Shown: one piece after another, positions 7,770 through 26,170 of the stretch
Position numbering within the stretch: the first letter of the stretch is position 1
How the letters are laid out: each line of letters opens with the position of its first letter
Virus record (IMG/VR): IMGVR_UViG_3300042527_000625
Location: 1-30,330 of that record
Origin: a virus
Direction: 5' to 3' (one strand)
DNA: 30,330 nucleotides
Translations under genes and position numbers: made by a program
The notes under the pieces: generated by a model
What the model was told of the DNA's origin: nothing
Databases searched by the model: none
The model's input: only the letters and a program-made list of their open reading frames with translations

Positions 7770-7985
7770 TCAGCGGCGGGGCTTGCGCTTGGGCGCCTCG
7801 ACGGCATCGGAACTCTCCGGGGAAACCGGAGGGTTGGCCTCGGGCTCCACCGGGTCGAGGATGTGCACCGCACCGTCGCCGTACTGCGACCGAATCCACG
7901 CCACCTGGTCCGCGGTGAGGTCCGCGGTCCACGGGTGGTTGTTCTGTCCCATCGTGGGGACGCGCTTCGTGACGGTGCAGCGCAT
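7770..7985 (-). CDS. Small protein after the major capsid gene, unknown
   Basis: A 71-residue protein starting at 7985, overlapping the capsid gene stop (ATGA). The middle, WTADLTADQVAWIRSQYGDG, looks like a short helical domain. The C-terminal half is Pro/Glu-rich and ends in a basic KRKPRR. Small proteins in this position are often head completion or N-terminal connector-associated factors, but nothing in the sequence shows that. Codon use and overlap with the neighbour make the gene likely. Confidence 0.7.
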   Translation of the reverse strand: MRCTVTKRVPTMGQNNHPWTADLTADQVAWIRSQYGDGAVHILDPVEPEANPPVSPESSDAVEAPKRKPRR

Positions 7986-9052
7986 CAGGCGAGACAGTCG
8001 GTGATGGTGTAGCCGAGCTGCGCCATGAGGGCGACCTCGTCGGTGTAGACCTCGCCCTTGATGTAGACGCCGCGAGCGGAGAGGTTGGCGCTCTCCTCCT
8101 CGCGAATCGACATCGGGAGCACGAGGCCACCGCTGTTGACGCCGCCACCTTCCAGCGGGTCCTCGACGACGAGCAGGAACGCCGAGGGGCGCGCGAGCAC
8201 GTCGCTGCCGGCCGCCGTGACGCCGCTGCCGAGGCAGCCGAGCCACACGGTGTCAGTGAGCAGGTCGGCCGACGTGTGCGTGAGCCCGTCCGCCGAGGTC
8301 TGCCGCCGCGCGTCGCTGATGATGAGGTCGAGGCCGAGCTCACCCTTGAACGCCGAGATGAGGTACTCGTCGGAAGCGACCGCGCGAGCGATGGGCGCGG
8401 CGCCCGATGTCACGATGGCGAAGCCCCGGGCCTCGGCGGAGCGCGCCACGAAGGACGCGACCGCGCGGCTCATGATGACCGTGTCAGGACGGAGGCCGAA
8501 CGCCTGCGCCCGGAACACCTCGATGGCGGCCCGCAGGTCGCTCATCGGGGCGGCCGTGGCGACCGTCGACCACTGCACGCCCGCGCCGCCCGTGAGGGCG
8601 GTCAGGGCGGCCGTGCCGGTCCAGTTGCCAGTGGTCGAGAACGTGGTGAGGACCTTCGCCTCGACTGCGAGGGCGAGCGACCGCGCGAGGCTCACGGCCT
8701 CAAATTCCTTGATGCTCTCGGGCATCTGCGACCGCTCGAGGAGCCGGTACGGCAGGAGGTCCGACGCGAGCTTCATCTCGACGGTGCGGTACGTGACCGT
8801 CGTCGGGGCGCCGAGCGAGCGCTGCGGGTAGTCTGCCGCGAGCGCCGTCTCGAGCACCGCGGGGGAGCCGAGCATCGACGCCGAGGGCGCGACGAAGATC
8901 GTCCCCTGATGGTCGCGGGGGGCGACGCGGACGGTGTTGCGCGCGAGGCGCGGGAACACGAGTCCGCCCAGGTCCTGCATGGCGCCGATGACGCCTGCCG
9001 CCGAGAGGACCGGATTGACCGGCGCGAGCTGCGCCGTGGTGTAACCAGCCAT
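7985..9052 (-). CDS. Major capsid protein
   Basis: A 355-residue protein beginning MAGYTTAQLAPVNPVLSAAG. Features fitting an HK97-fold coat protein of the E / P22-like type are LVFPRLARNTVRVAPRDHQG near the N-terminus, a long helix (IKEFEAVSLARSLALAVEAK), the Gly/Ala-rich P-domain-like middle with RPDTVIMSRAVASFVARS, and a C-terminal strand pair (ANLSARGVYIKGEVYTDEVA). It has one of the strongest SDs in the window, AAGGAGG nine bases before the ATG, as expected for the most abundant virion protein. It sits after the protease and decoration genes in standard head order. Confidence 0.88.
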   Translation of the reverse strand: MAGYTTAQLAPVNPVLSAAGVIGAMQDLGGLVFPRLARNTVRVAPRDHQGTIFVAPSASMLGSPAVLETALAADYPQRSLGAPTTVTYRTVEMKLASDLLPYRLLERSQMPESIKEFEAVSLARSLALAVEAKVLTTFSTTGNWTGTAALTALTGGAGVQWSTVATAAPMSDLRAAIEVFRAQAFGLRPDTVIMSRAVASFVARSAEARGFAIVTSGAAPIARAVASDEYLISAFKGELGLDLIISDARRQTSADGLTHTSADLLTDTVWLGCLGSGVTAAGSDVLARPSAFLLVVEDPLEGGGVNSGGLVLPMSIREEESANLSARGVYIKGEVYTDEVALMAQLGYTITDCLA

Positions 9053-9065
9053 GAATCAGCCCTCC

Positions 9066-9470
9066 TTAGGCCACGAGGATGCGGATGCCGGAGAGCAGAA
9101 TGCTGCACACGGCGTCGTTGGCGGTCGCGCCGGTCGAGGACCGGCCGCCGAGCATGGTGCCGAGCCCGAAATCACCGGACGCAGCGGCCTTCACCTCGGC
9201 GTCCGCGGTGCACCCGATGGTGGTACCCGGGGCGATGGCGGCCGAGGCCACGGCGTAGTCCACGCGACCCTGCACGACCACGTCGATGAGGTCGCCGACC
9301 GCGGCAGCGGCGGTGCCCGCCACGCCCACGATGAGGTGACCCGTCGCGCTCGTGCCGTCCGTCGCCTGCGTGACGACCGGGATGCCGGTGGAGTAGGAGT
9401 TGAGGCGCACGAACCGACCGCGCGCAATGGCGGCCGACGCGATGCACGTGATGGTGACGGGCTGGCTCAT
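9066..9470 (-). CDS. Head decoration protein
   Basis: A 134-residue protein beginning MSQPVTITCIASAAIARGRF, starting at 9470 with an ATGA overlap. It is almost all short strands and Gly/Ala turns, with GRVDYAVASAAIAPGTTIGC and a final CSILLSGIRILVA. This matches the small beta-barrel pattern of DUF2190-type phage decoration proteins, which bind the outside of the mature capsid. Placement between the protease/scaffold and the capsid gene is the lambda-like order (C, Nu3, D, E). The family call is by pattern and position. Confidence 0.75.
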   Translation of the reverse strand: MSQPVTITCIASAAIARGRFVRLNSYSTGIPVVTQATDGTSATGHLIVGVAGTAAAAVGDLIDVVVQGRVDYAVASAAIAPGTTIGCTADAEVKAAASGDFGLGTMLGGRSSTGATANDAVCSILLSGIRILVA

Positions 9471-9865
9471 CGGGTGTGCTCCTTGCGGCCGAGCGCCGCA
9501 GCAATCAGTTCGTTCGCCTTGGCGACCGCGGCCTTTTCGGGCGTGGTCTCGGGCTTGGGCTCGGCGGCCCCGCCGTGACCCGCCGCGCTCCCGACCTGCG
9601 CCTGCGGCACCATGTCGGAGAGCATCGCGCGCACGTCGTCGAGGCCGATGCGGACGGCCCGCTCGACCCACGACGCACGCGACGCCTGCGGGATGCGGGT
9701 CTCGCGGATGGCGCCATCGACGATGGCCTCCGCGTCCCGCGTGCGGAGCGCGAGCTCCGCGGCATCGGCGCGCGCGGCATCAGCCTGCTGCGCACCCTTC
9801 AGACGCTCGACCTCTCGGGCGAGCGCCTCCAACTGTGCGGCCTGCGCCGCAACCTGCTCGCTCAT
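9467..9865 (-). CDS. Nested scaffold protein (Nu3-like) from internal start
   Basis: Within the protease gene the ATG of residue Met368 (first base 9865) is preceded by GGAGG with an 8-base spacing, a good ribosome binding site in the middle of a coding region. Translation from it gives a 132-residue protein made of the coiled coil MSEQVAAQAAQLEALAREV, an Arg/Ala/Asp-rich middle and a C-terminal helix rich in Ala and Lys. In lambda the scaffold Nu3 is made the same way inside gene C. The internal SD is seen. The separate product is inferred. Confidence 0.6.
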   Translation of the reverse strand: MSEQVAAQAAQLEALAREVERLKGAQQADAARADAAELALRTRDAEAIVDGAIRETRIPQASRASWVERAVRIGLDDVRAMLSDMVPQAQVGSAAGHGGAAEPKPETTPEKAAVAKANELIAAALGRKEHTR

Positions 9866-10966
9866 ATCGAGCGCCTCCGTACCGCCATCGAGAGACGCGA
9901 GCGCCGGGGCGGTCCGGACAGCGCGCGGGTAGTCGAGCGGCATGCGGCCGCCCATGAACATCCAGTCATCAGCGTCGGTCGCGATGCGGTCCACCAGGCC
10001 CCGCTCCACGGCGTCCTGCGCCGAGTAGACCGACCCATCGCCGAGCGCCTCGCGACTCACGCCACGACCGCGCGCGATGTCGTCGAGCATGACCTCGGCG
10101 AGCGCGTCGACCCGGCGCTGGAGCGCTGCGAGGTAGTCGCCGTCGTCGACCGACGCGCGCTTCGAAGGCGTCTGCGTCGAGACCACCTCGACGACATGCT
10201 CGGCGTCCTCGACGTAGAGGGTCACGACCACGCCCACGCCACCGACCTGCGCAGTGGGCGATGCGACAATCTCATCGGCGCCCGAGATGACCCACAGGGC
10301 CGCTGATGCCGCGGTGCCGTAGACGTAGGCGACGACGTAGACGCCTGCGGCCTGCGCCCGTGCGATGGCACGGCGCGTCTCGACGACACCAGAGACGTAA
10401 CCCCCCGGGGAGTCGACGTGGATGATGAGCACGGGGTGGCGCTCGGCCATCGCCTTGTCGGTCTCGTGCCGAGCAGCGCTGTAATCGTAGGGATAGAGCC
10501 CGCCCTCGAGGTGCATCGAGCCGACCGCACCATCGGGCAGCACACGCGCAGGTCGAGGCGCCGAGAGCGCCCGCGCATGCCCTGCGAGCACGGCCAGTTC
10601 CGCCGGCGCCATCGATGCGCCCGTGTTCTCGTCTCGCATCGCGTCGACCTCCTTGAGCCGCTCGACCCATCGCCGCCCGGGGTCGCCGCCCCACAGGAGC
10701 CACGCCACGAATCCCGGCGTCTCCTCGCCGTCCTGGTCATCGACACCGCGCTGGAAGTCGTCAGCGTGGCGCGCGAACCAGGCAGGAGCCTCGACGGTCG
10801 CCCACTGCTCCGACTGCGGCTCACCGTCCGCGATGCTGTTCGCGCGGCGCACGGTCTCGGGCTTGAGCCCGTCGCCGGACTTGCCGGCCTCGTGCAGCTC
10901 GACACCTCGGCGCGCGGCGTCCTGCACGGCCTCGGGCGGCGTCAGCTCGGCAGTCGTGAGCGCCAT
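9467..10966 (-). CDS. Capsid maturation protease, S49 (SppA / lambda C-like), with C-terminal scaffold region
   Basis: A 499-residue protein. Residues 1-110 form a domain often fused to phage head proteases, with GLKPETVRRA and FVAWLLWGGDPGRRW. Residues about 150-345 are an S49 serine protease core: VDSPGGYVSGV (184-194), YGTAASAALWVISGADEIVA with the likely nucleophile Ser221, and TPSKRAS with likely general base Lys269, about fifty residues later as in SppA. From residue 368 a coiled coil (AAQLEALAREVERLKGAQ) and acidic/Ala-rich tail form a probable scaffold. This is the lambda C/Nu3 arrangement. The start at 10966 overlaps the portal stop (ATGA). Confidence 0.9.
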   Translation of the reverse strand: MALTTAELTPPEAVQDAARRGVELHEAGKSGDGLKPETVRRANSIADGEPQSEQWATVEAPAWFARHADDFQRGVDDQDGEETPGFVAWLLWGGDPGRRWVERLKEVDAMRDENTGASMAPAELAVLAGHARALSAPRPARVLPDGAVGSMHLEGGLYPYDYSAARHETDKAMAERHPVLIIHVDSPGGYVSGVVETRRAIARAQAAGVYVVAYVYGTAASAALWVISGADEIVASPTAQVGGVGVVVTLYVEDAEHVVEVVSTQTPSKRASVDDGDYLAALQRRVDALAEVMLDDIARGRGVSREALGDGSVYSAQDAVERGLVDRIATDADDWMFMGGRMPLDYPRAVRTAPALASLDGGTEALDMSEQVAAQAAQLEALAREVERLKGAQQADAARADAAELALRTRDAEAIVDGAIRETRIPQASRASWVERAVRIGLDDVRAMLSDMVPQAQVGSAAGHGGAAEPKPETTPEKAAVAKANELIAAALGRKEHTR

Positions 10967-12354
10967 CAGAGACCGCCCGGCAGCGCGCCCGCAGGCGGCG
11001 TCATGGCGACCGTGCCCGCGACCCGCGCGCGCTCACTGCGCCCATCGGCGGCAGTCGAGGGCGGTGCAAGCTCGAGGGTGGCGCGGATGTGGCGCTCGTC
11101 GTCTGGCGACGGCGTCAGCGCGCCGGTGTTGAGCAGCGAGACCACGTCCGCGATGCGCTCGACCCACAGCGGGGAGCGGATGCCGGCGTAGGTCAGGCGC
11201 GGCAGCTCGGCGAGCGGGAGCGGACCGATGTTCAGCGCGACGATGGTGCGGACGTAGGGCGCGAGCCCCTCGGCCACCCACTGGCACAGGTCACCCGCGA
11301 GCTGCGCCGCTAGGTCCGCGTGCACCTGCGCCGTGGAGTACGACCCCGACGAGGACGCCGAGCCCATCGCGAGGTGTTGCACGTAGCAGGCTTGGAGGAT
11401 TTGCCGCTCGAGGTCGGCGACCACGCCCGAGAGCGGAGCGGCCGAGTCGGGGCGCCCCTCCCACGCGAGCGTTGCCCACGAGGGCATCACCAGCGCGGCA
11501 TCCTCGTGCGATGACCACTTGCGGGCGATGTCGAGGAGCGCAGTGCGCGCCGACTCGATGGCCGATACGTCAGGCGGTCCGCCATCGCTGCGAGCGCTTC
11601 GCCCGAGGGCCTCCTCGTCGATGCTGATGGTGGGCACGGGGACCGCAGTCCGCTGCATCGCGACCGCGCGCAGGCGCATCGTGGCCGTGTAGTCTGTGGC
11701 GAGCGGCTCGATGTGCCGCATGATTCCGAGCCCCTCGACGCCCGCAGCCGGCGAGGGGTAGACCAGGTGCACGAGCCGCTCGTAAGGGAGCCGCACCGAC
11801 GTCATCGACGACAGCCCGCCGGGCTCGCGTCGCCATTGGTCGACCGCGACCACGCGCCCGTCGCGGTCGTACACCCATTGACGCACGCTCGATTGGTCGC
11901 GCGGCTCTAGGTCGACGTAGGTGGTCCCCTCGTAGGGGTATGCCACCATCTCCGCGAGGCTGAACCCCATCAGCGCGCCGCGCAGGAGGTCGCGCAACCG
12001 CGACTCCCACGAGGGCAGCGCGATGATGCGCCCCTCCCATTCGATGACCGGGGAGCTCGCCCCGCCGAGACCAAGCACGCGCCGCACGACCGCCGCAGCG
12101 GCCTCCGACGCAGGCGAATCCGCCACCGGGGATACGTCCCACGTGGCCGAGGTCGCGAGGCCCGACAACGCCTGCCACCCGACCCGCACGGGCGCGCACC
12201 GCTCGGCGACCGAGTAGGCCCGGATGCGCTCCGACAGCACCGCGAACCGTCGCGCGTGCTCGCCATCCTGTGCCGCGAGAGAGTGCGCGCCGATGCCCCG
12301 ACCTGGTACGGCCTCGGGCGGGGTGTAGGCGGAGACGCGGACAGCCTGCGGCAT
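10966..12354 (-). CDS. Portal protein (DUF935 / Mu gp29-like)
   Basis: A 462-residue protein forming the probable dodecameric vertex through which DNA is packaged. It shows the usual portal course: an N-terminal arm, a core with LRDLLRGALMGFSLAEMVAYPY, a VYPSPAAGVEGLGIMRHIEPL segment typical of DUF935-type portals, the helical stem region and a wing near LERQILQACYVQHLAMGSA. It is followed by the protease gene with ATGA overlap. The start at 12354 has no SD; a -10-like TAGTCT ends 6 bases before the ATG in the shared leaderless box. Confidence 0.88.
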   Translation of the reverse strand: MPQAVRVSAYTPPEAVPGRGIGAHSLAAQDGEHARRFAVLSERIRAYSVAERCAPVRVGWQALSGLATSATWDVSPVADSPASEAAAAVVRRVLGLGGASSPVIEWEGRIIALPSWESRLRDLLRGALMGFSLAEMVAYPYEGTTYVDLEPRDQSSVRQWVYDRDGRVVAVDQWRREPGGLSSMTSVRLPYERLVHLVYPSPAAGVEGLGIMRHIEPLATDYTATMRLRAVAMQRTAVPVPTISIDEEALGRSARSDGGPPDVSAIESARTALLDIARKWSSHEDAALVMPSWATLAWEGRPDSAAPLSGVVADLERQILQACYVQHLAMGSASSSGSYSTAQVHADLAAQLAGDLCQWVAEGLAPYVRTIVALNIGPLPLAELPRLTYAGIRSPLWVERIADVVSLLNTGALTPSPDDERHIRATLELAPPSTAADGRSERARVAGTVAMTPPAGALPGGL

Positions 12355-12372
12355 GTGCGCAGACTACCACAC
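12352..12372 (-). promoter_or_regulatory. Leaderless promoter box before the portal gene
   Basis: GTGTGGTAGTCTGCGCAC followed directly by the ATG of the portal gene. The box differs at one base from that before the adaptor gene (6454-6474). TAGTCT lies exactly 6 bases before the start codon and no SD is present. GTGCAT lies 17 bases upstream of the hexamer as a weak possible -35. The box would restart expression of the head block after the inserted small gene 12405-12716. Confidence 0.55.
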
Positions 12373-12404
12373 GCCGTCAGTCGATGCACGCACGGTGCGT
12401 CAGG

Positions 12405-12716
12405 CTACTCGGCTGCGGTGTCTGCGGCCCCGGGCACGGGGGCTCCGTCGCGCAACACCGTCATACCGCCGCGCAGCGCATCCCACACGGCTTCGGACTC
12501 CGTGTCGAAACTCTCGCAAGCCTCCCACACAGAGCGGTCGGACGTGTAGGCGCGCTCCCAGTTCATCCGCTCAACGGCGATGCCGACTGCCTTGGCCAGC
12601 TCGGCAGCCTGCTTGATGTTGCTTTCGTCGTCGCGCAACACCGCTACGTGGTCCTTCATCGGCCCTGCATTGCACTCCCACAGAGTCCATATGCACACCT
12701 TGACACCGTCGCTCAT
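12405..12716 (-). CDS. Unknown small protein, moron-like insert before the portal gene
   Basis: A 103-residue acidic protein (MSDGVKVCIWTLWECNAGPM) that I do not recognise. The first codons (MSDxVKV) match the start of the 6495-6866 protein although the rest differs, suggesting a shared leader-plus-start cassette. I chose the ATG at 12716 over one at 12746 because the hairpin 12729-12742 and a GAGGAG with six-base spacing stand directly before it. The upstream ATG lies ahead of that hairpin. Helices (NIKQAAELAKAVGIAVERM, ESEAVWDALRGG) suggest a small globular protein. It sits between packaging and head genes. Confidence 0.75.
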   Translation of the reverse strand: MSDGVKVCIWTLWECNAGPMKDHVAVLRDDESNIKQAAELAKAVGIAVERMNWERAYTSDRSVWEACESFDTESEAVWDALRGGMTVLRDGAPVPGAADTAAE

Positions 12717-12728
12717 CTCATCCTCCTC

Positions 12729-12742
12729 GCGCCCCTCGGCGC
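12729..12742 (-). promoter_or_regulatory. Start-associated GAGG-loop hairpin
   Basis: Minus strand GCGCC-GAGG-GGCGC, perfect 5-base-pair stem, then GAGGAG, six bases and the ATG at 12716. The same 14 bases recur at 26171-26184 and 26587-26600. A weak promoter (GTGCAG, 17 bases, TGGAGT) ends six bases upstream of it. Confidence 0.72.
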
Positions 12743-12746
12743 TCAT

Positions 12747-12986
12747 CTACTCCACTAATTCCGCCGCCGGTCTGCACGTCGTAGTGAACCCCGCCGACGT
12801 GCAGTGATAGTCCACGCCCTTGCACCGCGCGTCCCACGTCCACGAGGCGTAGTGCATCTCCACCTCGCGGACCTCGACCTGCTGCTCCGTGCACGGCATC
12901 TGCGACACGCTCATCGCACGCGCCGAGGACTGCCACTGCGCCGAGCAACCTGCGGCGACGAACGCCACGAGGATGAACCTGCCCAT
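12747..12986 (-). CDS. Small putative lipoprotein
   Basis: A 79-residue protein beginning MGRFILVAFVAAGCSAQWQ: one basic residue, a short hydrophobic stretch and a VAAGC lipobox, giving a lipid-modified Cys14. The rest holds four more Cys (32, 55, 62, 71) and reads as a small, probably disulphide-bonded periplasmic domain. I chose the start at 12986 because AGGAGG lies five bases upstream, preceded by a GAGG-loop hairpin. It sits as an extra gene between the large terminase and the head block with its own probable promoter. Morons encoding envelope lipoproteins can change phage receptors or exclude other phages, but no such role is shown here. Confidence 0.75.
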   Translation of the reverse strand: MGRFILVAFVAAGCSAQWQSSARAMSVSQMPCTEQQVEVREVEMHYASWTWDARCKGVDYHCTSAGFTTTCRPAAELVE

Positions 12987-12997
12987 ATCGACCTCCT

Positions 12998-13011
12998 GCG
13001 GCCCTCGCCGC
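12998..13011 (-). promoter_or_regulatory. Start-associated GAGG-loop hairpin
   Basis: Minus strand GCGGC-GAGG-GCCGC, perfect 5-base-pair stem, followed by AGGAGG, five bases and the lipoprotein ATG at 12986. Confidence 0.72.
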
Positions 13012-13019
13012 ACCGTCAC

Positions 13020-13047
13020 GAGTAGCACGCGCCCGGACACCTCGCAA
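13020..13047 (-). promoter_or_regulatory. Putative promoter for the small lipoprotein gene
   Basis: Minus strand TTGCGA (13047-13042), 16-base spacer ending GGGCGCGTG, CTACTC (13025-13020). Spacing and the G-rich spacer end match the promoters at 6898-6925 and 21114-21141. The -10 match is weak. It lies in the 64-base gap after the large terminase and would start the transcript near the leader hairpin. Confidence 0.42.
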
Positions 13048-13050
13048 CGC

Positions 13051-14460
13051 CTACTCATGCCACGACCCCGGCGCCTCGTACCGCCTCGGCCCCTGCTGCG
13101 TCGGAGCCGGTGCCGTCGTCGGATGACCGGGCGGCGACCACAGCACGTGCCGCACGGCGTACCGCAGCGCGTCGGCGTGGTGGTCATGCGTCCCGTCCTT
13201 CGCGGGCCTGCCGGGTTGCCGCGCGTCCCATCGATACCCCGACAGCGCGCGGGCCAGGGTGCGCCGCCCTGCCGGAGCGCGCAGTCCGGCCTCGTAGAGC
13301 TGCCGCGCCACGGTCAGCGCGCCGCGCTCGAGGGCGAGGTCTACGCGCGTGCAGCCGCTCACAATGTCACGCCGCGCCGGGTCGCGCTCGATAATGGGCA
13401 CCATGCCGAGCCCCTGCGGATGCGCCGCGCGCACCAGGTCGAGGTCAGACGCCCCGGTCTGCGCCGACCGCGCAGCGCCTGCCGGGTCGACCACGACCAT
13501 GTCGAGCGGGATGCGCCGGTCGCCCGGGGTCCAGTGGCGCCGAGGCACGCAGTCGGCTGCGAGGCGCGCGAGCAGGTCGGGGAGCGCCTCGTCGTCGGGT
13601 GCCCACTCCCGCACGACGCACCAGCGGTTACGCCCGGTCTCTGCGAGGGCGAGGACCGCGGGGTGACGGAGGCCGAAGTCCATCGCGAGGAGGCACCGCA
13701 TCGTGCCCCAATCCGGCACCAGGTCGACGACGCAGCGCTCAGGCGCCCACGACCTGAACACGGACCCCGAGGGCGGCAGCGGCCGATTCTCCGCGAGCGC
13801 CGAAAAGTCCCGCTCGCCGAGCGTCTCGCGCATCCGGTCGAGCCACCCCGGCCCGAGGTGCGCCACGTTGTCCGCGCTCACCGGCAGGTACACCGCTCCC
13901 CCGACCTCGCGCGTCCGCTCGACCCACCACGCGGGCTCGACGGGGATGCCGCACGTGAGCACGATAGGCGCGCGGACGTGCCCGCCCTGCGTCATCGGCA
14001 CGCGAGCTCGAGAGCGCGCCACGTCGAGCACGTCGGGGCGCAGCGTCTGGCACTCGTCGATGAGCACGGCGTGCGCGTTGACGCCCTCGATGGGCGACTG
14101 CCCGAGCCCCGCGCCTGCCGGCGTGTCGAGGTGCGCGAGGATGAGCCGCGACCCGCTTGGCCACGCGAACGCCTGCTCGCTGATTTGGTGCGCGACCGTC
14201 GAGCCAGAGAGCAGGCCGTGAAGATGCGGGAGGTGCACGTCGCGGAGGCGCCGATGCGTGTCCATGCCCACGACCACAGTGGCGCCGGGTCGATGCTCCG
14301 CGATGAGGCACGCGAGCGCGCAGAGTGCGAGGCTCTTACCCGACCCGAGCCCGCCGCGAATCGCTGCGATGTCACCGGGCCAGTGACCCGAGAGCCCTGC
14401 GGCGAGCATGTCGGCCTGCCACGGCAGCGGGTCGAGGTCCGCGATGCGCGGCGTGGTCAT
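13051..14460 (-). CDS. terL: Terminase large subunit
   Basis: A 469-residue packaging motor with both expected domains. ATPase: Walker A GGLGSGKS (residues 36-43), Walker B with catalytic Glu at AVLIDECQ (131-138), and VLTCGIPVEPAWW as a probable coupling segment. Nuclease, RNase H-like: MDFGL (Asp261), VVVDPAG (Asp325) and DHHADALRY (Asp426/Asp430). The protein cuts concatemeric DNA and drives it through the portal. It overlaps the small terminase gene by 4 bases (ATGA). The window edges suggest a circularly permuted genome, consistent with headful packaging. Confidence 0.95.
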   Translation of the reverse strand: MTTPRIADLDPLPWQADMLAAGLSGHWPGDIAAIRGGLGSGKSLALCALACLIAEHRPGATVVVGMDTHRRLRDVHLPHLHGLLSGSTVAHQISEQAFAWPSGSRLILAHLDTPAGAGLGQSPIEGVNAHAVLIDECQTLRPDVLDVARSRARVPMTQGGHVRAPIVLTCGIPVEPAWWVERTREVGGAVYLPVSADNVAHLGPGWLDRMRETLGERDFSALAENRPLPPSGSVFRSWAPERCVVDLVPDWGTMRCLLAMDFGLRHPAVLALAETGRNRWCVVREWAPDDEALPDLLARLAADCVPRRHWTPGDRRIPLDMVVVDPAGAARSAQTGASDLDLVRAAHPQGLGMVPIIERDPARRDIVSGCTRVDLALERGALTVARQLYEAGLRAPAGRRTLARALSGYRWDARQPGRPAKDGTHDHHADALRYAVRHVLWSPPGHPTTAPAPTQQGPRRYEAPGSWHE

Positions 14461-18159: not shown

Positions 18160-18834
18160 TCACCCGCCCCGCGCCGTCTCCGCCCGCTCGACGCGCGCCT
18201 GGTCGAGCGCGATGAGCCGCGCATCGCCCCGGTGCACCGCGCGCCCGAGGTGGTCATCGACAGTGGACGGAGGCGCCCTGCCCCGCCCGCCGCGCATCAG
18301 CCACGCGTCACGGGCGGCGCGCTCGCGGCAGAGCGCCAGGTGGCGCGCGACGTAGTCCACCGGGTCGGCCGTGCACTTGTGCGTGACCTTGCGGCCGTTC
18401 GGGTACGGCGCGACCGCAGCGCCGTCGAGCTCGGCGAGAGACGCCGCGATGGGCGCGTCTCGGCGCGAGTCGAGGAGCGCGGAGAGCGTCGCCTGCATCG
18501 TGCCCTCGTCGTCGCGCAGGTTCGCGGCGGTCAGCGCCGCACCCATCGCATGCGTCACGTGCAGGTCGAGACGCCCCGCCGGTTCGTGACTGCGGCGCGA
18601 CTGCACGACCTGCGTGCTCCGAAGTAGCGCAGCGCTCGCCCCTCGATGCGCGCGGAGGTGCGGCACCACGTACCCGAGCGCGCGCAGCGCCTCGGCGACC
18701 TCCTCGCGCACGACCTGCGCCCCGCTCCACATGCGCACGCCGTGAGCGGTCGCGGCCTGCCGGTCGGCTATCCAGTCGCGCTGCGCCATCGTGGGCCGGT
18801 AGATGACCCGCACGTCGAGACCCTCGCCCCTCAT
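18160..18834 (-). CDS. Unknown protein upstream of the endolysin
   Basis: A 224-residue basic, mostly helical protein starting MRGEGLDVRVIYRPTMAQRD at 18834 (ATGA overlap). Segments such as SGAQVVREEVAEALRALGYVV and GTMQATLSALLDSRRDAP are clear helices. The C-terminal quarter is Arg-rich (ARDAWLMRGGRGRAPP). KVTHKCTADPVDYVARHLALCRE holds two Cys and two His and could bind a metal. No family recognised. It closes the early operon and is separated from the endolysin by the leaderless box. Confidence 0.72.
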   Translation of the reverse strand: MRGEGLDVRVIYRPTMAQRDWIADRQAATAHGVRMWSGAQVVREEVAEALRALGYVVPHLRAHRGASAALLRSTQVVQSRRSHEPAGRLDLHVTHAMGAALTAANLRDDEGTMQATLSALLDSRRDAPIAASLAELDGAAVAPYPNGRKVTHKCTADPVDYVARHLALCRERAARDAWLMRGGRGRAPPSTVDDHLGRAVHRGDARLIALDQARVERAETARGG

Positions 18835-19073
18835 TTGCGCCACCCGCTGCGCTCAAGCGAGCGCTCCGCCGCCTTGCACGCGGCGGCATAGCTGTCGCTC
18901 TCGCCCATGTCGCCCATCGCCCACCAGACCCACCCCTCGTCTCCCGTCTCCGGCGACGGTTCCTCAGCGTACGACACGACGGCCTGCGGTTCGCCCTCGC
19001 CGGGCACAACCCACTCGCCGCCCACGTACTCAGACTTCAGCCTGCCGGCGCGCAGCAACTCCACATCGCTCAT
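18831..19073 (-). CDS. Unknown small acidic protein
   Basis: An 80-residue protein (MSDVELLRAGRLKSEYVGGE) starting at 19073, overlapping the RecU-like gene stop, with GGGAGG six bases before the ATG. The middle is acidic and ends in DEGWVWWAMGDMGESDSYAA, a Trp-rich segment, followed by a basic helix. Function unknown. Position right after the nuclease gene suggests an accessory early protein. Confidence 0.72.
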   Translation of the reverse strand: MSDVELLRAGRLKSEYVGGEWVVPGEGEPQAVVSYAEEPSPETGDEGWVWWAMGDMGESDSYAAACKAAERSLERSGWRK

Positions 19074-19636
19074 GCTCCGCCTCCCTTCATCGCGTCGACC
19101 CAGCGCGGCAGCGGCCCTGTAATGGGGCGCGCCCATGCTGCACACTCATCCTGGTCGACACTCGCCACGCCACGCCCGCGCAGCTCCGCGAGCGTCGCCC
19201 ACTCCCACAGCCACGCGCTCGACGAACGGCGAGGAGGCACCCAACACAGCGCCACGAGCGCGTGCGCGTCCATCTCGTGCGCGGCCTGAAGCGTCGACCA
19301 CTGCGGCCCGTTCGTTGCCGCGCCGAGGGCCTCGGCAAAGCGCCACCGCTCGGTCGTGCACACCTTGGCCTCGAGGTACACGGGCTCGGGCGCCACGTCG
19401 CGCACGACACTCCCGACGTAGTCCACGCTGGCCCGCGCTGCCCACGCCGCGGGAAACGTGGTGCGCCCCCGCGCATCCTTCCGCGTCGCGCCCATCACGA
19501 GCGCCTCGGTCGGCACCTGGACCATGAGCCCGGCCCGCGTGACCCGAAGGTGCGCGTGGTACGCGTCGAGCTGCGCCTGCCACGCGAGGCCGAGAGCACG
19601 GGATGTGCGCCCGGTCGAGGACTTGTCGCCGCTCAT
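19070..19636 (-). CDS. RecU-like Holliday junction resolvase / nuclease
   Basis: A 188-residue protein whose order of motifs fits the RecU branch of PD-(D/E)xK nucleases: SRALGLAWQAQLDAYHAHLR at the N-terminus, VDYVG with catalytic Asp72, YLEAKVCTTERWRF with Glu89 and Lys91 forming E-x-K, then PQWSTLQAAHEMDAHALVAL with Gln112 and a final strand CWVPP. RecU proteins cleave four-way junctions made in recombination and replication, fitting neighbours RecT, SSB and the helicase loader. AGGAGG stands five bases before the ATG. Confidence 0.78.
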   Translation of the reverse strand: MSGDKSSTGRTSRALGLAWQAQLDAYHAHLRVTRAGLMVQVPTEALVMGATRKDARGRTTFPAAWAARASVDYVGSVVRDVAPEPVYLEAKVCTTERWRFAEALGAATNGPQWSTLQAAHEMDAHALVALCWVPPRRSSSAWLWEWATLAELRGRGVASVDQDECAAWARPITGPLPRWVDAMKGGGA

Positions 19637-19887
19637 GGATCCCTCCTCATCGCGTCGAGGTCAGCCTCGGCCTCGCGCAGCATCGCCGCGCAGTGCGACT
19701 CCATCGCCCGCGCCACGCGTACCCGCATCGCGTCGACCCGCGCCAGACGCGCCGACTCGTCAGCCTGCGTCTCCGCATCGCGCGCCTCCTGCGCCGACTC
19801 CGCGAGCGCACGCCGTGCCGCGCTCACCTCGCGCCGCTGCCACTCGATGGCGATACGCCGCAGCGCTCGCCCGAGGATGTCATTCAT
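19633..19887 (-). CDS. Small coiled-coil protein, unknown
   Basis: An 84-residue protein (MNDILGRALRRIAIEWQRRE) starting at 19887 with AGGAGG nine bases upstream, overlapping its neighbour by 8 bases. It is almost entirely charged Ala/Arg/Glu helix with heptad spacing, so probably a coiled coil. No function can be named. It lies between the GDVV-domain gene and the RecU-like gene. Confidence 0.7.
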   Translation of the reverse strand: MNDILGRALRRIAIEWQRREVSAARRALAESAQEARDAETQADESARLARVDAMRVRVARAMESHCAAMLREAEADLDAMRRDP

Positions 19888-20218
19888 TGGCCGATTCCTC
19901 CTCAAGCGCAGCCTCGAGCGCCTCGACGTCATCGCGCATCTCCTCGAGCTTGCTTTCGGTGTCACGCACATCCCTGCGCGACAAATCCAGCAGGTCGGCG
20001 ACCGCGTCGCGCCTCGCCAGACGCGGAGGACGCACGCCGCAGCACGACAGCCACACCCGCGCACCGCCTGCCATCTCGCACAGCGCCTCGACAACATCCC
20101 CGTCGACTTCGCGCACGTCGCACACCAGCATCGCCGTGAAACGCACCCCGGCGTATCCCGTGTCCGGGTCATACGTAGCTTGATAGACCACATCGCCAGC
20201 CTTGATTCTCGCACTCAT
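19880..20218 (-). CDS. Unknown GDVV-domain protein, possible paralogue of 6495-6866
   Basis: A 112-residue protein beginning MSARIKAGDVVYQATYDPDT. The N-terminal 75 residues look like a small beta-barrel (RFTAMLVCDVREVDGDVVEA, ARVWLSCCGVRPP) and the C-terminal 40 form an acidic coiled coil (RDTESKLEEMRDDVEALEAA). The start MSxx[IV]K[AV]GDVV and the later G-x-RV...C..R...RxDA pattern are shared with the 123-residue protein at 6495-6866. Both genes have GAGG-loop hairpin leaders. The start at 20218 overlaps the helicase loader stop (ATGA), with AGGAG seven bases upstream. Confidence 0.75.
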   Translation of the reverse strand: MSARIKAGDVVYQATYDPDTGYAGVRFTAMLVCDVREVDGDVVEALCEMAGGARVWLSCCGVRPPRLARRDAVADLLDLSRRDVRDTESKLEEMRDDVEALEAALEEESANE

Positions 20219-20958
20219 GCTCGATCTCCTGCGCCCCCTCGAGCGCGCCTGTCTGGACCCACCATCTCCGCTCGCCTCGTCGCCCCGCGCAGCCTCGACC
20301 ACAGCCGGTCGCCGACGTGCTCGGCCAGCCCCGCGTCGTCGAGGTTCGAGGCGATGACCGTTGTCCGCCCGTCGTCGAGCCTGCCGCCGAGCACCTCGTC
20401 GAGGAGTTCCGCCGCGTACTCCGTCACCCGCTCGCGCCCGATGTCGTCGAGCACGACCACGTCAGGCGTCAGCACCCGCGACCTCATGCCGTGCTGGTCC
20501 ATCTCGCGCCCGATGGCGTCGCGGTACCGCCGCACCCACTCCGACCAGAGCACGTACCTCGCCGAGACGCGACGGTCGCAGAGCGCGCGGACCAGAGCGC
20601 ACGACCGATGCGTCTTGCCCGTGCCGGTCGGGCCGACGAGGCGCAGGCCCATCGACCTCGAGGTCCACGCATCGACCCACGCCGCAGCGGGGCCGCCCGG
20701 GTCGAGCGTCGCAGCGCGGTACGTCCACGGGATGCGGGCCAGCGTGAGACGTCGAGCGCGGGTCACGATGCCGGCGCAGAGGCACCGCACGCCGTCGACC
20801 GACTCGACCCCGACGCAGACGCCGCAGCGGGGCGCGACCCACTCGCAGAGGCCGTTAGCCTCGACGAGCGCGACGTCGGACCAGGTCAGCGGAGGGCGCG
20901 GCGCGTCGTCGCCATCGCCCCCGCCGAAGTCGCCGAGCAGGTCAGCGAGTGAATCCAT
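20215..20958 (-). CDS. DnaC-like helicase loader (AAA+ ATPase)
   Basis: A 247-residue protein. After an acidic start (MDSLADLLGDFGGG) comes a probable zinc-binding region with Cys at 38, 45, 48, 59 and 61. The AAA+ core has Walker A GPTGTGKT (109-116), Walker B VVVLDD (167-172) with IGRE, and a sensor I strand TTVIASNLD (199-207), as in DnaC/IstB-type loaders. It would load the host replicative helicase at the phage origin, working with the initiator encoded just upstream. The start at 20958 is set by AGGAGG five bases upstream behind a GAGG-loop hairpin. Confidence 0.85.
   Translation of the reverse strand: MDSLADLLGDFGGGDGDDAPRPPLTWSDVALVEANGLCEWVAPRCGVCVGVESVDGVRCLCAGIVTRARRLTLARIPWTYRAATLDPGGPAAAWVDAWTSRSMGLRLVGPTGTGKTHRSCALVRALCDRRVSARYVLWSEWVRRYRDAIGREMDQHGMRSRVLTPDVVVLDDIGRERVTEYAAELLDEVLGGRLDDGRTTVIASNLDDAGLAEHVGDRLWSRLRGATRRAEMVGPDRRARGGAGDRA
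20231..20246 (-). promoter_or_regulatory. Start-associated GAGG-loop hairpin
   Basis: Minus strand GCGCTC-GAGG-GGGCGC, 6-base-pair stem with one G-T pair, then AGGAG, seven bases and the ATG at 20218. It lies inside the last codons of the helicase loader gene, so it is kept within coding sequence. Confidence 0.65.
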
Positions 20959-21351: not shown

Positions 21352-22220
21352 CTCTCGCCCTCCTCGCTGGATTCCTGCACGTTCGCCCACGCGGCATTGA
21401 CGGACTTACGCCCTGCCGGGGCGCTACGGCCCCCGGAAGGCGCGCGGACGGGTCGAGGGCTGTCGTGTATGCCCTCGGCCACGATGCGGCCGAGAAGGGC
21501 CAGAGACGGCCCGCTGCCGCCTGCGACCTCTGCCGCCCGGTCGATGCACCTGGTCACGTACTCCGCACCCCGCTCATTCACTGCCGCCATGATGGCCTCG
21601 GCGTCGAGGCTGCCCACGACGAGCGGCGCAGCTCCGGACCTGCCACGCAGTGCGAGGCGCCATCGCTCGAGAGCTGCCGCGAGTCCGTCAGGAGGTGGCG
21701 CCGTCGCCGCTGCCTCGTGCGCGCGCCCCTGCGTGCGCGGGGGGGCCGCGTCAGCGGCGACCTGTGTCCTGTCCTGTCTTGTACTGTCTTGTACTGTTGT
21801 AACGGCAGGTAGCGTTACGCGTAACGGCTCCATAACGGTCGGCTCCGTTACGCGTAACGGCACCGTAACGGAATCACGCGTTACGGCCTCGCCCTTCGTC
21901 GCCTGTCGGTGCCGCTTCTGCCGCTCGGCATTCGTCGGATCGACCTGCGTCCGTCGCCAATCTTCGACGTCATACCCGTCGCCGTCCTCTCGCCGCGTCA
22001 ACATCCCGACGCGGATGAAGTGCTCGATGGCCGCGCTCCACGCATCGACCGTCGAGCCCCACAAGTGCGCGAGCTGCACCGGATTCGCTGCGAGTGCCGT
22101 CAGGTGCCCGGCGCGCGCCTTTGCCCGGGTGAGGATGGCGGGCCAGTAGAGAGCGTGGCCGGTGCACAGCAGGCGCTCGTCGGTGGGCACGTCGCAGTCG
22201 ACGCGAACCCAGGTGGTCAC
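21345..22220 (-). CDS. Replication initiator (lambda O-like), with origin inside the gene
   Basis: A 291-residue protein from a GTG overlapping the previous stop (GTGA at 22220-22217). The N-terminal part (TTWVRVDCDVPTDERLLCTG, VQLAHLWGSTVDAWSAAIEH, RVGMLTRREDGDGYDVEDWR) reads as a winged-helix domain like those of phage replication organisers. A low-complexity middle (residues about 110-150) encodes a block of repeated palindromes (21797-21886). A helical C-terminal domain follows. Initiators of this kind bind repeats within their own gene and recruit the helicase through a loader, here the DnaC-like protein downstream. The assignment rests on domain pattern, context and the repeats. Confidence 0.72.
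   Translation of the reverse strand: MTTWVRVDCDVPTDERLLCTGHALYWPAILTRAKARAGHLTALAANPVQLAHLWGSTVDAWSAAIEHFIRVGMLTRREDGDGYDVEDWRRTQVDPTNAERQKRHRQATKGEAVTRDSVTVPLRVTEPTVMEPLRVTLPAVTTVQDSTRQDRTQVAADAAPPRTQGRAHEAAATAPPPDGLAAALERWRLALRGRSGAAPLVVGSLDAEAIMAAVNERGAEYVTRCIDRAAEVAGGSGPSLALLGRIVAEGIHDSPRPVRAPSGGRSAPAGRKSVNAAWANVQESSEEGERW
21762..21886. repeat. Iteron-like palindromes: probable replication origin
   Basis: Within the initiator gene, GTAACGG and its complement recur at least eight times. There are two perfect palindromes with core CGTTACGCGTAACG (21813-21826 and 21845-21860, the second extended to 16 bases). Further single copies lie at about 21799-21804, 21832-21838, 21863-21871 and 21879-21886. 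A direct repeat of CTGTCTTGTA (about 21774-21793) flanks the block and is less GC-rich than its surroundings. Repeats inside an initiator gene are the lambda ori arrangement. Operator function is an alternative. Confidence 0.68.
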
Positions 22221-22423
22221 GCGTCACCGGCCGCGATGTGCGACGGTGTCTGGCGCTCGGCATCAGCCCACAGTCCGAGTCGGCGCAGCTTCTGCCGCAC
22301 GAGCGGGCTCGGCCGCGAGTCGGAGTGCAGCCACCTCCACGCCGTGGAGTAGCTGACGCCTGTCGCGTCGGCGAGTGCCTGCACCGTCAGGCCGGACGCC
22401 TCGAAGGATGAGCGCTGGAACAC
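22217..22423 (-). CDS. Small HTH regulator (Cro/CI-like)
   Basis: A 68-residue protein with a helix-turn-helix, LTVQALADATGVSYSTAWRW (residues 12-31), followed by a basic helix (LVRQKLRRLGL). I chose the GTG at 22423 because AAGGGGG stands four bases upstream and because the in-frame ATG at 22480 lies inside the promoter. It heads the replication operon, overlapping the initiator gene by 4 bases. Its own promoter carries a 20-base palindrome that it may bind, giving autoregulation of the operon. Confidence 0.78.
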   Translation of the reverse strand: MFQRSSFEASGLTVQALADATGVSYSTAWRWLHSDSRPSPLVRQKLRRLGLWADAERQTPSHIAAGDA

Positions 22424-22451
22424 GTTGCCCCCTTGTCTTGATTGCCGGGCC

Positions 22452-22480
22452 ACTCTATGCATTTGCTTAAGCAGATGCAA
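22452..22480 (-). promoter_or_regulatory. Promoter of the replication operon with operator palindrome in its spacer
   Basis: Minus strand TTGCAT (22480-22475), 17-base spacer, TAGAGT (22457-22452). The palindrome GCATCTGCTTAAGCAAATGC (22478-22459; 18 of 20 bases symmetric) fills the spacer and touches the -35, so a bound repressor would block RNA polymerase. The small HTH gene lies immediately downstream. Confidence 0.7.
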
Positions 22481-23814: not shown

Positions 23815-24120
23815 TTACAGCCGCGCGACAGTAACCCGCAACGAATCGCTACGCCGAACATCGACCATGCCCGGCACCTCGACCAGCGCGACCTCGTGCC
23901 CATCGAGCGGGCCAGAGCGCATGATACGCACCCGCCCGGCGTAGGCGTCGAGGCCGAGCCCCTCGCCGTGGGTGAGGGTCATGTGCCACGCCCCGCGCGA
24001 GAGGATGCGCTCCTCGCCGGGGCGCTGCGGCCGCTCGAGGGTGACGAGCGTGCGGGGTCCGTCGATGTGCACGGCGTCGAGGACGGACCAGACGCGGGCG
24101 TCAGAAGGGGATGGGGTCAT
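23815..24120 (-). CDS. Unknown small protein after ssb
   Basis: A 101-residue protein ([20 protein letters not shown]) starting at 24120 inside the last codons of ssb, with GGAGG eight bases before the ATG. It is strand-rich ([35 protein letters not shown]) with a central [20 protein letters not shown], suggesting a compact beta domain. Not recognised. It is the last gene before promoter cassette copy A. Confidence 0.7.
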
Positions 24121-24583
24121 CGCCGAAGCCTCCCCCCTGCGACCCGCCGAAGCCTCCCCCCTGCCCGCTGCCGCCCTGCGTCTGCCCGCCGCGCCATCCG
24201 CCGCCACCCGCACCCGTGCCGCCCGACGCGTTGCCGCGCTGCGGTCGCTCCTCGCCCCCGCCGAGGAACGTGACCTTGTCGGCGCGCACCTCCCACGCCT
24301 TCCGGTTGACGCCCTCCTTGTCGGTGTACTCACGGGTCCGGAGCGAGCCCTCGACGTAGACCGACCGGCCTTTCGCCAGGTACTGCCCGCACAGCTCCGC
24401 GGTCTTGCCCCACACGCTGATGGTGTGCCACTCGGTGCGCTCCTGCTTCGCGCCGGCCTTGTCGGTCCACTGCTCCGACGTCGCGAGACGCAGCTCGCAC
24501 ACGGGCTCACCGCCCTGCGTGTACCGCACCTCCGGGTCAGCCCCGAGGTTGCCGATGAGGATTACCTTGTTGACCGATGCCAT
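24101..24583 (-). CDS. ssb: Single-stranded DNA-binding protein
   Basis: A 160-residue bacterial-type SSB. The OB fold covers residues 1-110, beginning [20 protein letters not shown], with [19 protein letters not shown] and [21 protein letters not shown] Gly/Gln-rich linker follows, and the chain ends in the acidic tip DDPIPF that docks partner proteins. It coats ssDNA in replication and recombination, next to the RecT-like protein. AGGAGGG lies seven bases before the ATG, and a GAGG-loop hairpin (24601-24617) lies just upstream. Confidence 0.96.
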
Positions 24584-24795: not shown

Positions 24796-25141
24796 CGGGG
24801 CCATCCATGTCCGGCTCGTGCCACACGTCGATGACCGGCTCGCGCCGCACCTTCGCACTCCGCAGCCGCTCCGATGCAGGGAGCGAGAGGACGCACCGGG
24901 TCGCGAGTTCCGTCAGTGCCGCCGCGTGCGCCATCGTCGCGGCCTCCGTGGCGTCATGCGCCGCCGTGCACTCGGCCCGCGCGTCGAGGTCCGCGGCCTC
25001 GCACTGCGCAGCGCACGCTGCCACTATGCGCGCCGATTCCTGCGCCATCGACTCGCCGGACCGGAGCGCGAGCACGCCGACTGCGATGGCCCCGAGCGCG
25101 GCGCCGATAACGAGGGAGGGCAGGTCCCATCGGTCACTCAT
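24785..25141 (-). CDS. Membrane-anchored Ala-rich protein
   Basis: A 118-residue protein starting MSDRWDLPSLVIGAALGAIA at 25141 (8-base overlap with the RecT-like gene). Residues 7-27 form one membrane segment. The rest is Ala/Glu-rich helix with three Cys (VAACAAQCEAADLDARAEC) and an acidic end. With one N-terminal anchor and a helical soluble domain it also resembles an i-spanin in outline, but it lies in the recombination gene group, so its role is open. Confidence 0.68.
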   Translation of the reverse strand: MSDRWDLPSLVIGAALGAIAVGVLALRSGESMAQESARIVAACAAQCEAADLDARAECTAAHDATEAATMAHAAALTELATRCVLSLPASERLRSAKVRREPVIDVWHEPDMDGPDAD

Positions 25142-25934
25142 GGTCACTCTCCCCCGGATACTCGACCGGCGCATTGAGTGCAGCCTCACGCTTCGCGCGC
25201 CATGCCTCGAGCGCGTCGGCCCCGCGCTGCGTGTCGAGGTAGGACGCTGCACCCACGACACGCCCAAGCGGCGCCGTGCCGAGGTCGAGGCCGTCGCGCT
25301 GGAGCATCTCCTCGATGTATTCCGCCGCGTCGTCGCCGTGCGCGAGGATGCGCGCCGTGGCGTCGCGTCGCTCGTCGGGAGACTCGGGCGCAGGGGGCGC
25401 AGTCGGCGCAGGTCGTGAGGCTGCCACGGGCGCGTCGGTGCCGGCGAGCTCGTCGGGGTCGTACACGCCCGCCACGAGGTCGGGATACACGATGCGCGCG
25501 AGAGCTGCGGCACACCGGGCCCGCAGCATCGCCTCGGGGTAGGTCTGCCACTGCCCTCCGCCGCGCACGAGGCCAGCGACCCGCGCTTGCTCCATCGTCC
25601 ATGTCAGCACTGTCGGTGAGGTGTCGCCGCGCCGGGTCGTGGAGTAGGTCGCGCGCTCGGCAGTCGACTCGACCATACGCCACTCGACGCACTGGTCGGA
25701 GCGGCGAACAAGGGCGATGGTCGCGTCGGCCGAGAGGGTCACGCGGCCACGAATGACCGTGACCATTCGCAGCGCCTGCATGGGACCGATGCCGAGTTCG
25801 CGCCCGGTCATGAGGACCAGGAGCGCGTCCTGCGGTTTGCCGCGCAGGGCCTCCGGGGCGAGGGACGACGAGGCGATGACGATGGCGGTCGGGCCGAGCG
25901 GGTCGGCCGCTGCGACGGTGTCTGCGATGCTCAT
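25134..25934 (-). CDS. RecT-family single-strand annealing protein
   Basis: A 266-residue protein matching RecT-type phage recombinases: ALLVLMTGRELGIGPMQALR (37-56), VIRGRVTLSADATIALVRRS (60-79), an ATYSTTRRGD strand pair, WTMEQARVAGLVRGGGQWQT with YPEAMLRARCAAALARIVYP (112-151) and the GVYDPDELA ending of the core. A Pro-rich linker and a helical C-terminus follow. It anneals ssDNA in recombination, together with SSB. No partner RecE-type exonuclease is seen in the window. GGAGG lies seven bases before the ATG. Confidence 0.85.
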   Translation of the reverse strand: MSIADTVAAADPLGPTAIVIASSSLAPEALRGKPQDALLVLMTGRELGIGPMQALRMVTVIRGRVTLSADATIALVRRSDQCVEWRMVESTAERATYSTTRRGDTSPTVLTWTMEQARVAGLVRGGGQWQTYPEAMLRARCAAALARIVYPDLVAGVYDPDELAGTDAPVAASRPAPTAPPAPESPDERRDATARILAHGDDAAEYIEEMLQRDGLDLGTAPLGRVVGAASYLDTQRGADALEAWRAKREAALNAPVEYPGESDHE

Positions 25935-26170
25935 TGCCGCGCCTCCTTCCAGCGCCGACGCGCCTCGGTAATCTCGACCCCGGCGAGCGCGCACAGGGTC
26001 CGCATGTGGCGCACGTTGGGGCGCGTGTGGCCGTTCGCCCACCGCGACACGGTGGCGGCGCGCACCCCGAGCACGGCTGCGAGTTGCGCGCCGCCGCCGC
26101 AGGACCCTGCGGCCTCGATGGTGACGTACGCCGGGACCGCCCCGGCTTCGATGGTGTCGAGGGAAATCAC
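25931..26170 (-). CDS. Small XRE-type HTH protein
   Basis: A 79-residue protein from a GTG overlapping the previous stop (GTGA at 26170-26167). The helix-turn-helix is clear: AQLAAVLGVRAATVSRWANG (residues 28-47) and then HTRPNVRHMRTLCALAGVEI. It is the right size for a Cro-like regulator. A GAGG-loop hairpin ends at the base before the GTG, leaving no room for a normal SD, so translation is probably coupled to the upstream gene. Confidence 0.78.
   Translation of the reverse strand: MISLDTIEAGAVPAYVTIEAAGSCGGGAQLAAVLGVRAATVSRWANGHTRPNVRHMRTLCALAGVEITEARRRWKEARQ

Follow-up and report, generated by a model that had tools for sequence, protein, structure and literature searches.

A probable replication origin with a one-strand pentanucleotide ladder inside the initiator gene of an IMG/VR phage genome

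Where does a phage begin to replicate its DNA when a dense cluster of short repeats lies within the gene for its own presumed initiator? This question is raised by the IMG/VR virus record IMGVR_UViG_3300042527_000625, the whole of which (30,330 bases, hereafter the window) was analysed computationally. In its initiator-like gene P0001, an array of short repeated sites (iterons) directly adjoins a stretch of DNA in which ACANN recurs every five bases on the coding strand (the pentanucleotide ladder). We consider, with a probability of roughly 0.8, that array and ladder together constitute the phage's theta-type replication origin, situated inside its own initiator gene and opened at the ladder. 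A preliminary description of the locus had proposed a probable origin here, and an intragenic origin analogous to the lambda ori in gene O or to the SPP1 oriL in gene 38 is well supported by four kinds of sequence evidence: the conserved place of array and ladder, selection at the level of DNA, the association of the array with the N-terminal domain of the initiator and the weakness of the duplex at the ladder. The more novel half of the finding is the ladder, probably a sequence-specific element, which unrelated phages also have.

The array consists of seven copies of GTAACG and one of ATAACG in both orientations, which occupy 86 bases about 340 nucleotides (nt) into the initiator coding sequence. 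A 14-11-8 spacing recurs among the eight sites, with a period of 33 base pairs (bp). The window holds eight copies of the GTAACG core, of which seven lie in 21799-21884 and one elsewhere, and all five of its exact copies of GTAACGG fall within 21799-21871. The preliminary description had counted at least eight copies of GTAACGG in some 90 bases; eight sites are indeed present, but as a six-base core with one variant, the exact heptamer accounting for only five. Both perfect palindromes that it reported were found (Table 1).

Seven of eight ladder units read ACANN, and nowhere else in the window do at least five of eight units conform to A[CG]A. By nearest-neighbour energies, no other 40-, 60- or 100-base segment of the window is as unstable as the one at the ladder (starts 21762, 21759 and 21758, respectively). 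The tandem repeat of lower GC content noted earlier, CTGTCTTGTA, does recur exactly at 21774 and 21784 in this least stable DNA, but it is more than an AT-richer neighbour of the array: it lies inside the ladder (21774-21793) and forms part of its five-base pattern. The start of the last iteron and the first ACA are separated by 7 bases in the window and in its relative L004 (N-type A), and by 9-10 bases in other relatives (N-type B). With its fixed three-base core, its five-base step, its confinement to one strand and its nearly constant spacing from the last iteron, the ladder is probably not just a stretch that melts easily. As in intragenic iteron origins, phased sites are found in the linker-coding part of an initiator-type gene, with an easily unwound region adjacent to them.

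The structure of P0001 was predicted by AlphaFold2 from nine aligned sequences. The model comprises a winged-helix domain (residues ~12-109), a disordered linker (110-173) and a helical C-terminal domain (180-249), with a predicted local distance difference test (pLDDT) score mostly of 83-93 over residues 21-90. The array and the ladder sit exactly in the part of the gene that codes for the linker, where the preliminary description had placed the repeats. Foldseek neighbours of the model are mostly winged helices, weak and none of them significant (DnaD N-domain 2vn2, probability 0.89, E=0.42). A Pfam search of P0001 returned no family, and its only PHROG matches are 186 and 13246; the profile of PHROG 186, a DnaD-like helicase loader, matches residues 4-119 (E=1.2e-4), reaches E=0.02 with the protein of L004 and does not match that of L005. 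By PHROG, P0001 may tentatively be placed among DnaD-like or replisome-organizer proteins, and the SSB and RecT-like genes nearby (Table 1) give it a replication context. The earlier comparison with lambda O holds as an analogy but not as kinship, none of which is detectable with Pfam Phage_rep_O or the O-like PHROG.

Twelve related viral loci (L004-L015), eight of them distinct, were compared with the window; the annotated phage collection contained no close DNA or protein relative of its replication region, and a first scan of genome contigs with the window's own initiator family found no relative. In all of the related loci, a GT(A/C/G)ACG array occupies the same place and is followed by a ladder. 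Identity between the window and L005 is 93% in the part behind the ladder and just 48% in the N-domain, and their iterons differ (GTAACGG versus GTCACG); L004 and L011 repeat this relationship (C part 92%, N-domain 51%), their iteron types differing likewise. The window and L004, conversely, have the N-domain (78%) and the site type in common but a C part of only 54% identity, and L013 has kept the ladder with a C part 25% identical to that of the window. Taken together, the two natural swaps and L013 indicate that the array accompanies the N-domain and that the ladder is tied to neither domain. In a second initiator family (95 genes), iteron similarity is related to N-domain identity (partial r 0.33), and among its diverged pairs the correlation is r=0.18 with N-domain identity compared with -0.007 for C-domain identity. 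These comparisons support the view that iterons follow the predicted DNA-binding N-domain and not the C-domain.

The same observations bear on the alternative that the array is an operator or a partition-type site, bound by a regulator (the helix-turn-helix protein encoded at 22217-22480 or an autorepressing initiator), and no start of replication. Palindromes would suit a dimeric DNA-binding protein, and the helix-turn-helix gene lies directly upstream; against this, the gene that holds the repeats, some 340 nt into its coding sequence, encodes a replication-type protein, and the repeats move together with the N-domain of that protein and keep a fixed distance from a ladder of low stability. 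We regard this alternative as improbable.

Whether DNA or protein has shaped the repeats was assessed against a null of 2000 synonymous recodings of the initiator gene that kept its codon usage. The window gene contains seven GTAACG against a mean of 1.1 after recoding (p=0.0005), and the five-base periodicity of its linker is 23 against 15.9 (p=0.0015); the genes of the relatives gave the same outcome, except for the periodicity of L009 (p=0.09). Because both repeats are lost on synonymous recoding, the protein does not force the array or the ladder. Rare codons are used in the ladder: threonine is encoded by ACA in 23 of 28 cases within the ladder and in 12 of 129 outside it (p=2e-14), and valine by GTA in 12 of 17 cases versus 24 of 193 outside (p=4e-7). 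In type-B relatives, whose iterons are phased at 10 bp, copies of one 6-mer fall in each of the three reading frames. The preliminary description had argued that the repeats impose a repetitive protein segment and that DNA is the likely object of selection; the segment RVTEPTVMEPLRVTLPAV is present in P0001, within the predicted disordered stretch, and the recoding null is rejected for the array and for the periodicity. The converse explanation, that selection acts on the peptide of the linker and brings about the DNA repeats as a consequence, can point to the peptide TVQD/STVQ, recognizable in several members. It is at odds with the destruction of the repeats by synonymous recoding, with the concentration of rare codons in the ladder (threonine ACA and, in the MAGDW family introduced below, arginine AGA) and with repeats that run through all frames, and we consider it highly improbable. 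Selection on the DNA, and not on the protein alone, is supported.

Ladders of this kind extend well beyond the relatives of the window. A scan of viral contigs for ACAGTACAGNACANNACAG yielded 106 stretches, many of which sit in the linkers of different initiators (phrog_9474, 270, 2509, 2447 and 2562; Pfam Phage_rep_org_N and Lin1244_N), others being plain chance matches in unrelated genes. The ladders in these initiators are preceded by repeats of their own, such as GGGACAGTCCC, GGACGTCC, GCACGT, CTCCGAGC and GGGGAATCCCCC. Initiators were then gathered by protein similarity alone into non-redundant sets: the MAWIESHQ family, with 62 members from viral contigs and 65 from GTDB genomes (Firmicutes, Verrucomicrobia, Chloroflexi, Actinobacteria, Fibrobacteres and Armatimonadetes), and the MAGDW family, with 34. 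These families do not sample initiators at random, as the ladder was what first drew attention to most of their seed proteins; the only correction for kinship among members was the removal of near-identical linkers.

Self-similarity at a shift of five, taken over 35 bases, has medians of 23, 24 and 25 in the viral MAWIESHQ, GTDB MAWIESHQ and MAGDW sets, compared with 14.5-19 at shifts 4, 6, 7 and 8. The five-base periodicity of the initiator gene exceeds that of the rest of its own locus in 49 of 62, 54 of 65 and 33 of 34 cases (136/161), where about 6-7% would be expected from length; periods 4, 6, 7 and 8 are not enriched in the 161 genes, nor is period 3. At least six of eight units fit A[CG][AC]NN in 119 of the 161 genes, with ACC (63), AGA (36) and ACA (20) as dominant cores. 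The start of the ladder falls in all three codon phases, and its core lies on the coding strand and downstream of the iterons throughout. Repeated 6-mers (at least three copies) occur in the 110 bases before the ladder in 80% of genes; the corresponding figures are 23% for the sequence behind the ladder and 25% for the N-terminal part. Synonymous recoding abolishes the periodicity of the ladder (p<0.05 in 85-100% of MAWIESHQ and MAGDW genes), and arginine is encoded by AGA in 67 of 78 cases in MAGDW ladders versus 39 of 385 outside (p=5e-41). In a further family, WESGFE, all 11 non-redundant members carry a ladder. The element thus occurs in phages and prophages from several phyla and in three or more initiator families besides that of the window, and the GC content of the genomes in which it recurs ranges from about 30 to 73%.

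These data speak most directly to the main rival explanation, which would see in the window an iteron origin of the ordinary type: the ladder would serve as a DNA-unwinding element and nothing more, and its five-base repeat would have arisen incidentally, through replication slippage in a linker that is disordered. Such linkers tolerate repeats, and the ladder is the least stable segment of a window with a GC content of 71.5%. Yet the same core and period recur in unrelated initiators across that range of genomic GC contents, and in L061, a locus of 30% GC, the ladder is not AT-richer than its surroundings. Slippage would further predict enrichment of periods 4, 6, 7 and 8, contrary to what was found, and the strand (coding) and position (downstream of iterons) of the core are fixed. 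This explanation is unlikely, although less so than the other alternatives. A further proposal takes the ladder for a series of primase start sites and not for an element of opening or loading; it derives from the CTG that ACAG units place on the complementary strand; ACCNN and AGANN ladders, which form the majority, generally have no CTG in the complement, and the only general features are the five-base spacing and the A[CG][AC] core. We judge this proposal to be very improbable.

Annotated carriers of the ladder include Faecalibacterium phage Lagaffe, phage nd4, Xanthomonas phage Usaquen and Pseudomonas phage phiPSA1; in phiPSA1, the ladder gene is annotated as encoding a replication initiation protein and is followed by a DnaC-like loader gene. 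Among MAWIESHQ loci (L182-L261 and L343-L422), a DnaC-like AAA+ gene follows the ladder in 7 of 14 cases with an AGA core, 8 of 58 with ACC and 4 of 19 with ACA, by a crude motif test that is confounded by kinship; from the pairing of AGA with DnaC-like genes, the loader could be the protein that reads the ladder core.

Two related metagenomic contigs (L032:7256-7356 and L082:9002-9102) contain arrays of ACAGC/ACAGT pentamers with CAGTAACGCAACAGTACAGC repeats outside a long initiator open reading frame, which are possibly an intergenic version of the element. The reversed pattern GACANNACANGACATGACA was rejected as a negative control: ACA is unchanged on reversal, which makes the pattern unfit for that use, and several matches (L149 and L163) themselves resemble origins. 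The reversed-pattern scan also brought up GACNN repeats of five-base period in four unrelated viral contigs (L136, L150, L161 and L169), which are not in a long sense open reading frame.

Among known systems, lambda offers an intragenic parallel by layout: within gene O, an A+T-rich region of 40 bp next to the iterons is opened by O bound to them (PMC5043065). Both loci have inverted-repeat iterons in the middle of an initiator gene, followed by an easily opened region; however, the window has six-base sites phased at 33 bp (in relatives also at 10 bp) instead of the 18/19-bp iterons of lambda, and a strict five-base ladder of which lambda has only a trace. In SPP1, the replisome organizer gp38 binds direct repeats of oriL within gene 38, beside an AT-rich unwinding element (PMC6316719). 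By that published description, the likeness lies in repeats within the initiator gene, and PHROG groups P0001 with DnaD-like loaders and organizers.

The basal unwinding system of bacterial oriC consists of a DnaA-box, a spacer and DnaA-trios, along which a DnaA oligomer grows from the double-strand site over a one-strand repeat (PMC8287927). The iterons, spacer and ladder follow a similar order, with a double-strand site, a short spacer (7-10 nt in the window family from the start of the last iteron to the first ACA) and a one-strand repeat, and among the precedents compared this layout most closely resembles DnaA-box, spacer and DnaA-trio. The differences are a period of five instead of three, a core of ACA, ACC or AGA instead of 3'-GAT-5', a winged-helix protein in place of the AAA+ protein DnaA, and a location inside a coding gene. 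The window ladder is not a trinucleotide repeat, and the repeated sites that adjoin it are GTAACG-type iterons (no separate DnaA-box search was made). In the iteron replicons RK2, F and Vibrio cholerae ori2, strand-specific motifs for Rep or RctB lie in the unwinding element next to the iterons (PMC10797057). These share with the window short one-strand, initiator-specific motifs beside iterons, but they are T-rich 13-mers or ATCA-type motifs of single replicons, and no five-base ladder common to unrelated initiators is described in PMC10797057.

From these features we infer protein binding, strand opening, strand preference and a ladder-reading protein, as follows. The winged-helix N-domain would recognize the GTAACG sites (21799-21884), which would together serve as a helically phased array, and the duplex next to them would be opened at the ladder (21763-21797) by the nucleoprotein complex so formed. 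Successive subunits of the initiator, a helicase loader or the helicase might then each engage one ladder repeat on the opened strand, as DnaA does on DnaA-trios, and this assembly would fix the strand on which a host or phage helicase is loaded. The ladder is found with C-domains that are unrelated to one another, so that the initiator itself and a partner common to all of them (helicase, loader or host factor) are equally likely readers. The evidence is evenly poised on whether this amounts to a general origin-opening code in tailed phages and prophages of several phyla, in which fast-changing, initiator-specific iterons and a short spacer precede a conserved one-strand A[CG][AC]NN ladder read by a repeating protein assembly, as a phage counterpart, with a five-base step, of the DnaA-trio system.

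Several points weigh against reading the locus as an origin opened at its ladder. The assignment of P0001 is weak (PHROG E=1e-4, no Pfam family and no significant Foldseek match), and a helicase or loader gene was not identified within the window. Cumulative GC skew of the window, a check named in the preliminary description, showed no inflection at the array or ladder. The N-domain and the iterons are adjacent, so that co-transfer by recombination alone could give part of their association. Finally, model phages with mapped intragenic origins are without a ladder: none was found in P22 gene 18, D3 orf73, A118 gp49, TP901-1 rep or the Sfi21 ori, nor in the Rac gene ydaU, and lambda O has a trace only, its best five-base periodicity lying exactly behind iteron 4 (L179:1612-1660, ACA and AGA mixed) with a lag-5 score of 19, which equals background. 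The ladder is, therefore, not required for every intragenic origin. Its absence from the classical model phages may also explain why no description of a pentanucleotide, 5-bp or pentamer repeat in phage origins was found in the literature searched, the scope of which did not extend to subscription-only papers and preprints.

Table 1. Positions of the origin-related features and of neighbouring replication genes in the window
Feature	Position	Strand	Details
Window (whole IMG/VR record)	30,330 bases		71.5% GC
Initiator-like gene P0001	21345..22220	-	291 residues, GTG start; winged-helix N-domain, disordered linker, helical C-domain
Coding part of N-terminal winged-helix domain (residues 12-109), predicted iteron reader	21894..22187	-	pLDDT, Foldseek neighbours
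Iteron array	21799..21884	.	GTAACG + at 21799, 21821, 21854, 21865; ATAACG + at 21832; GTAACG - at 21813-21818, 21846-21851, 21879-21884
Perfect palindrome CGTTACGCGTAACG	21813..21826	.	
Perfect palindrome CCGTTACGCGTAACGG	21845..21860	.	16 bp
Pentanucleotide ladder	21763..21797	-	ACAGT ACAAG ACAGT ACAAG ACAGG ACAGG ACACA; coding strand, ACANN every 5 bases, directly beside array
Small helix-turn-helix gene, possible regulator	22217..22480	-	Pfam HTH_23 E=6.7e-7; directly upstream of initiator gene, same strand
Single-strand DNA-binding protein (SSB) gene, replication module	24101..24583	-	PF00436 E=1.5e-37
RecT-like annealing protein gene, replication/recombination module	25134..26042	-	phrog_561 E=5.2e-37

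The first half of the window is made up of head genes; the head module (7985-14460) includes a Mu-type portal (PF06074), an S49-like head protease and a major head protein beside the terminase. Strongly negative GC skew (-0.15 to -0.19) was observed at 12001-13500 and 18501-20500 and is unrelated to the position of the origin.

To our knowledge, the melting of iteron-type phage origins and the positioning of the helicase on them are poorly known outside lambda. The constancy of the ladder, set against changing iterons and protein domains, points to a shared step in origin melting, and it allows the opening of such origins to be tested directly on short DNA substrates. In phage and prophage genomes without annotation, the origin can be sought in a simple way, by looking for an initiator gene whose middle carries a five-base ladder.
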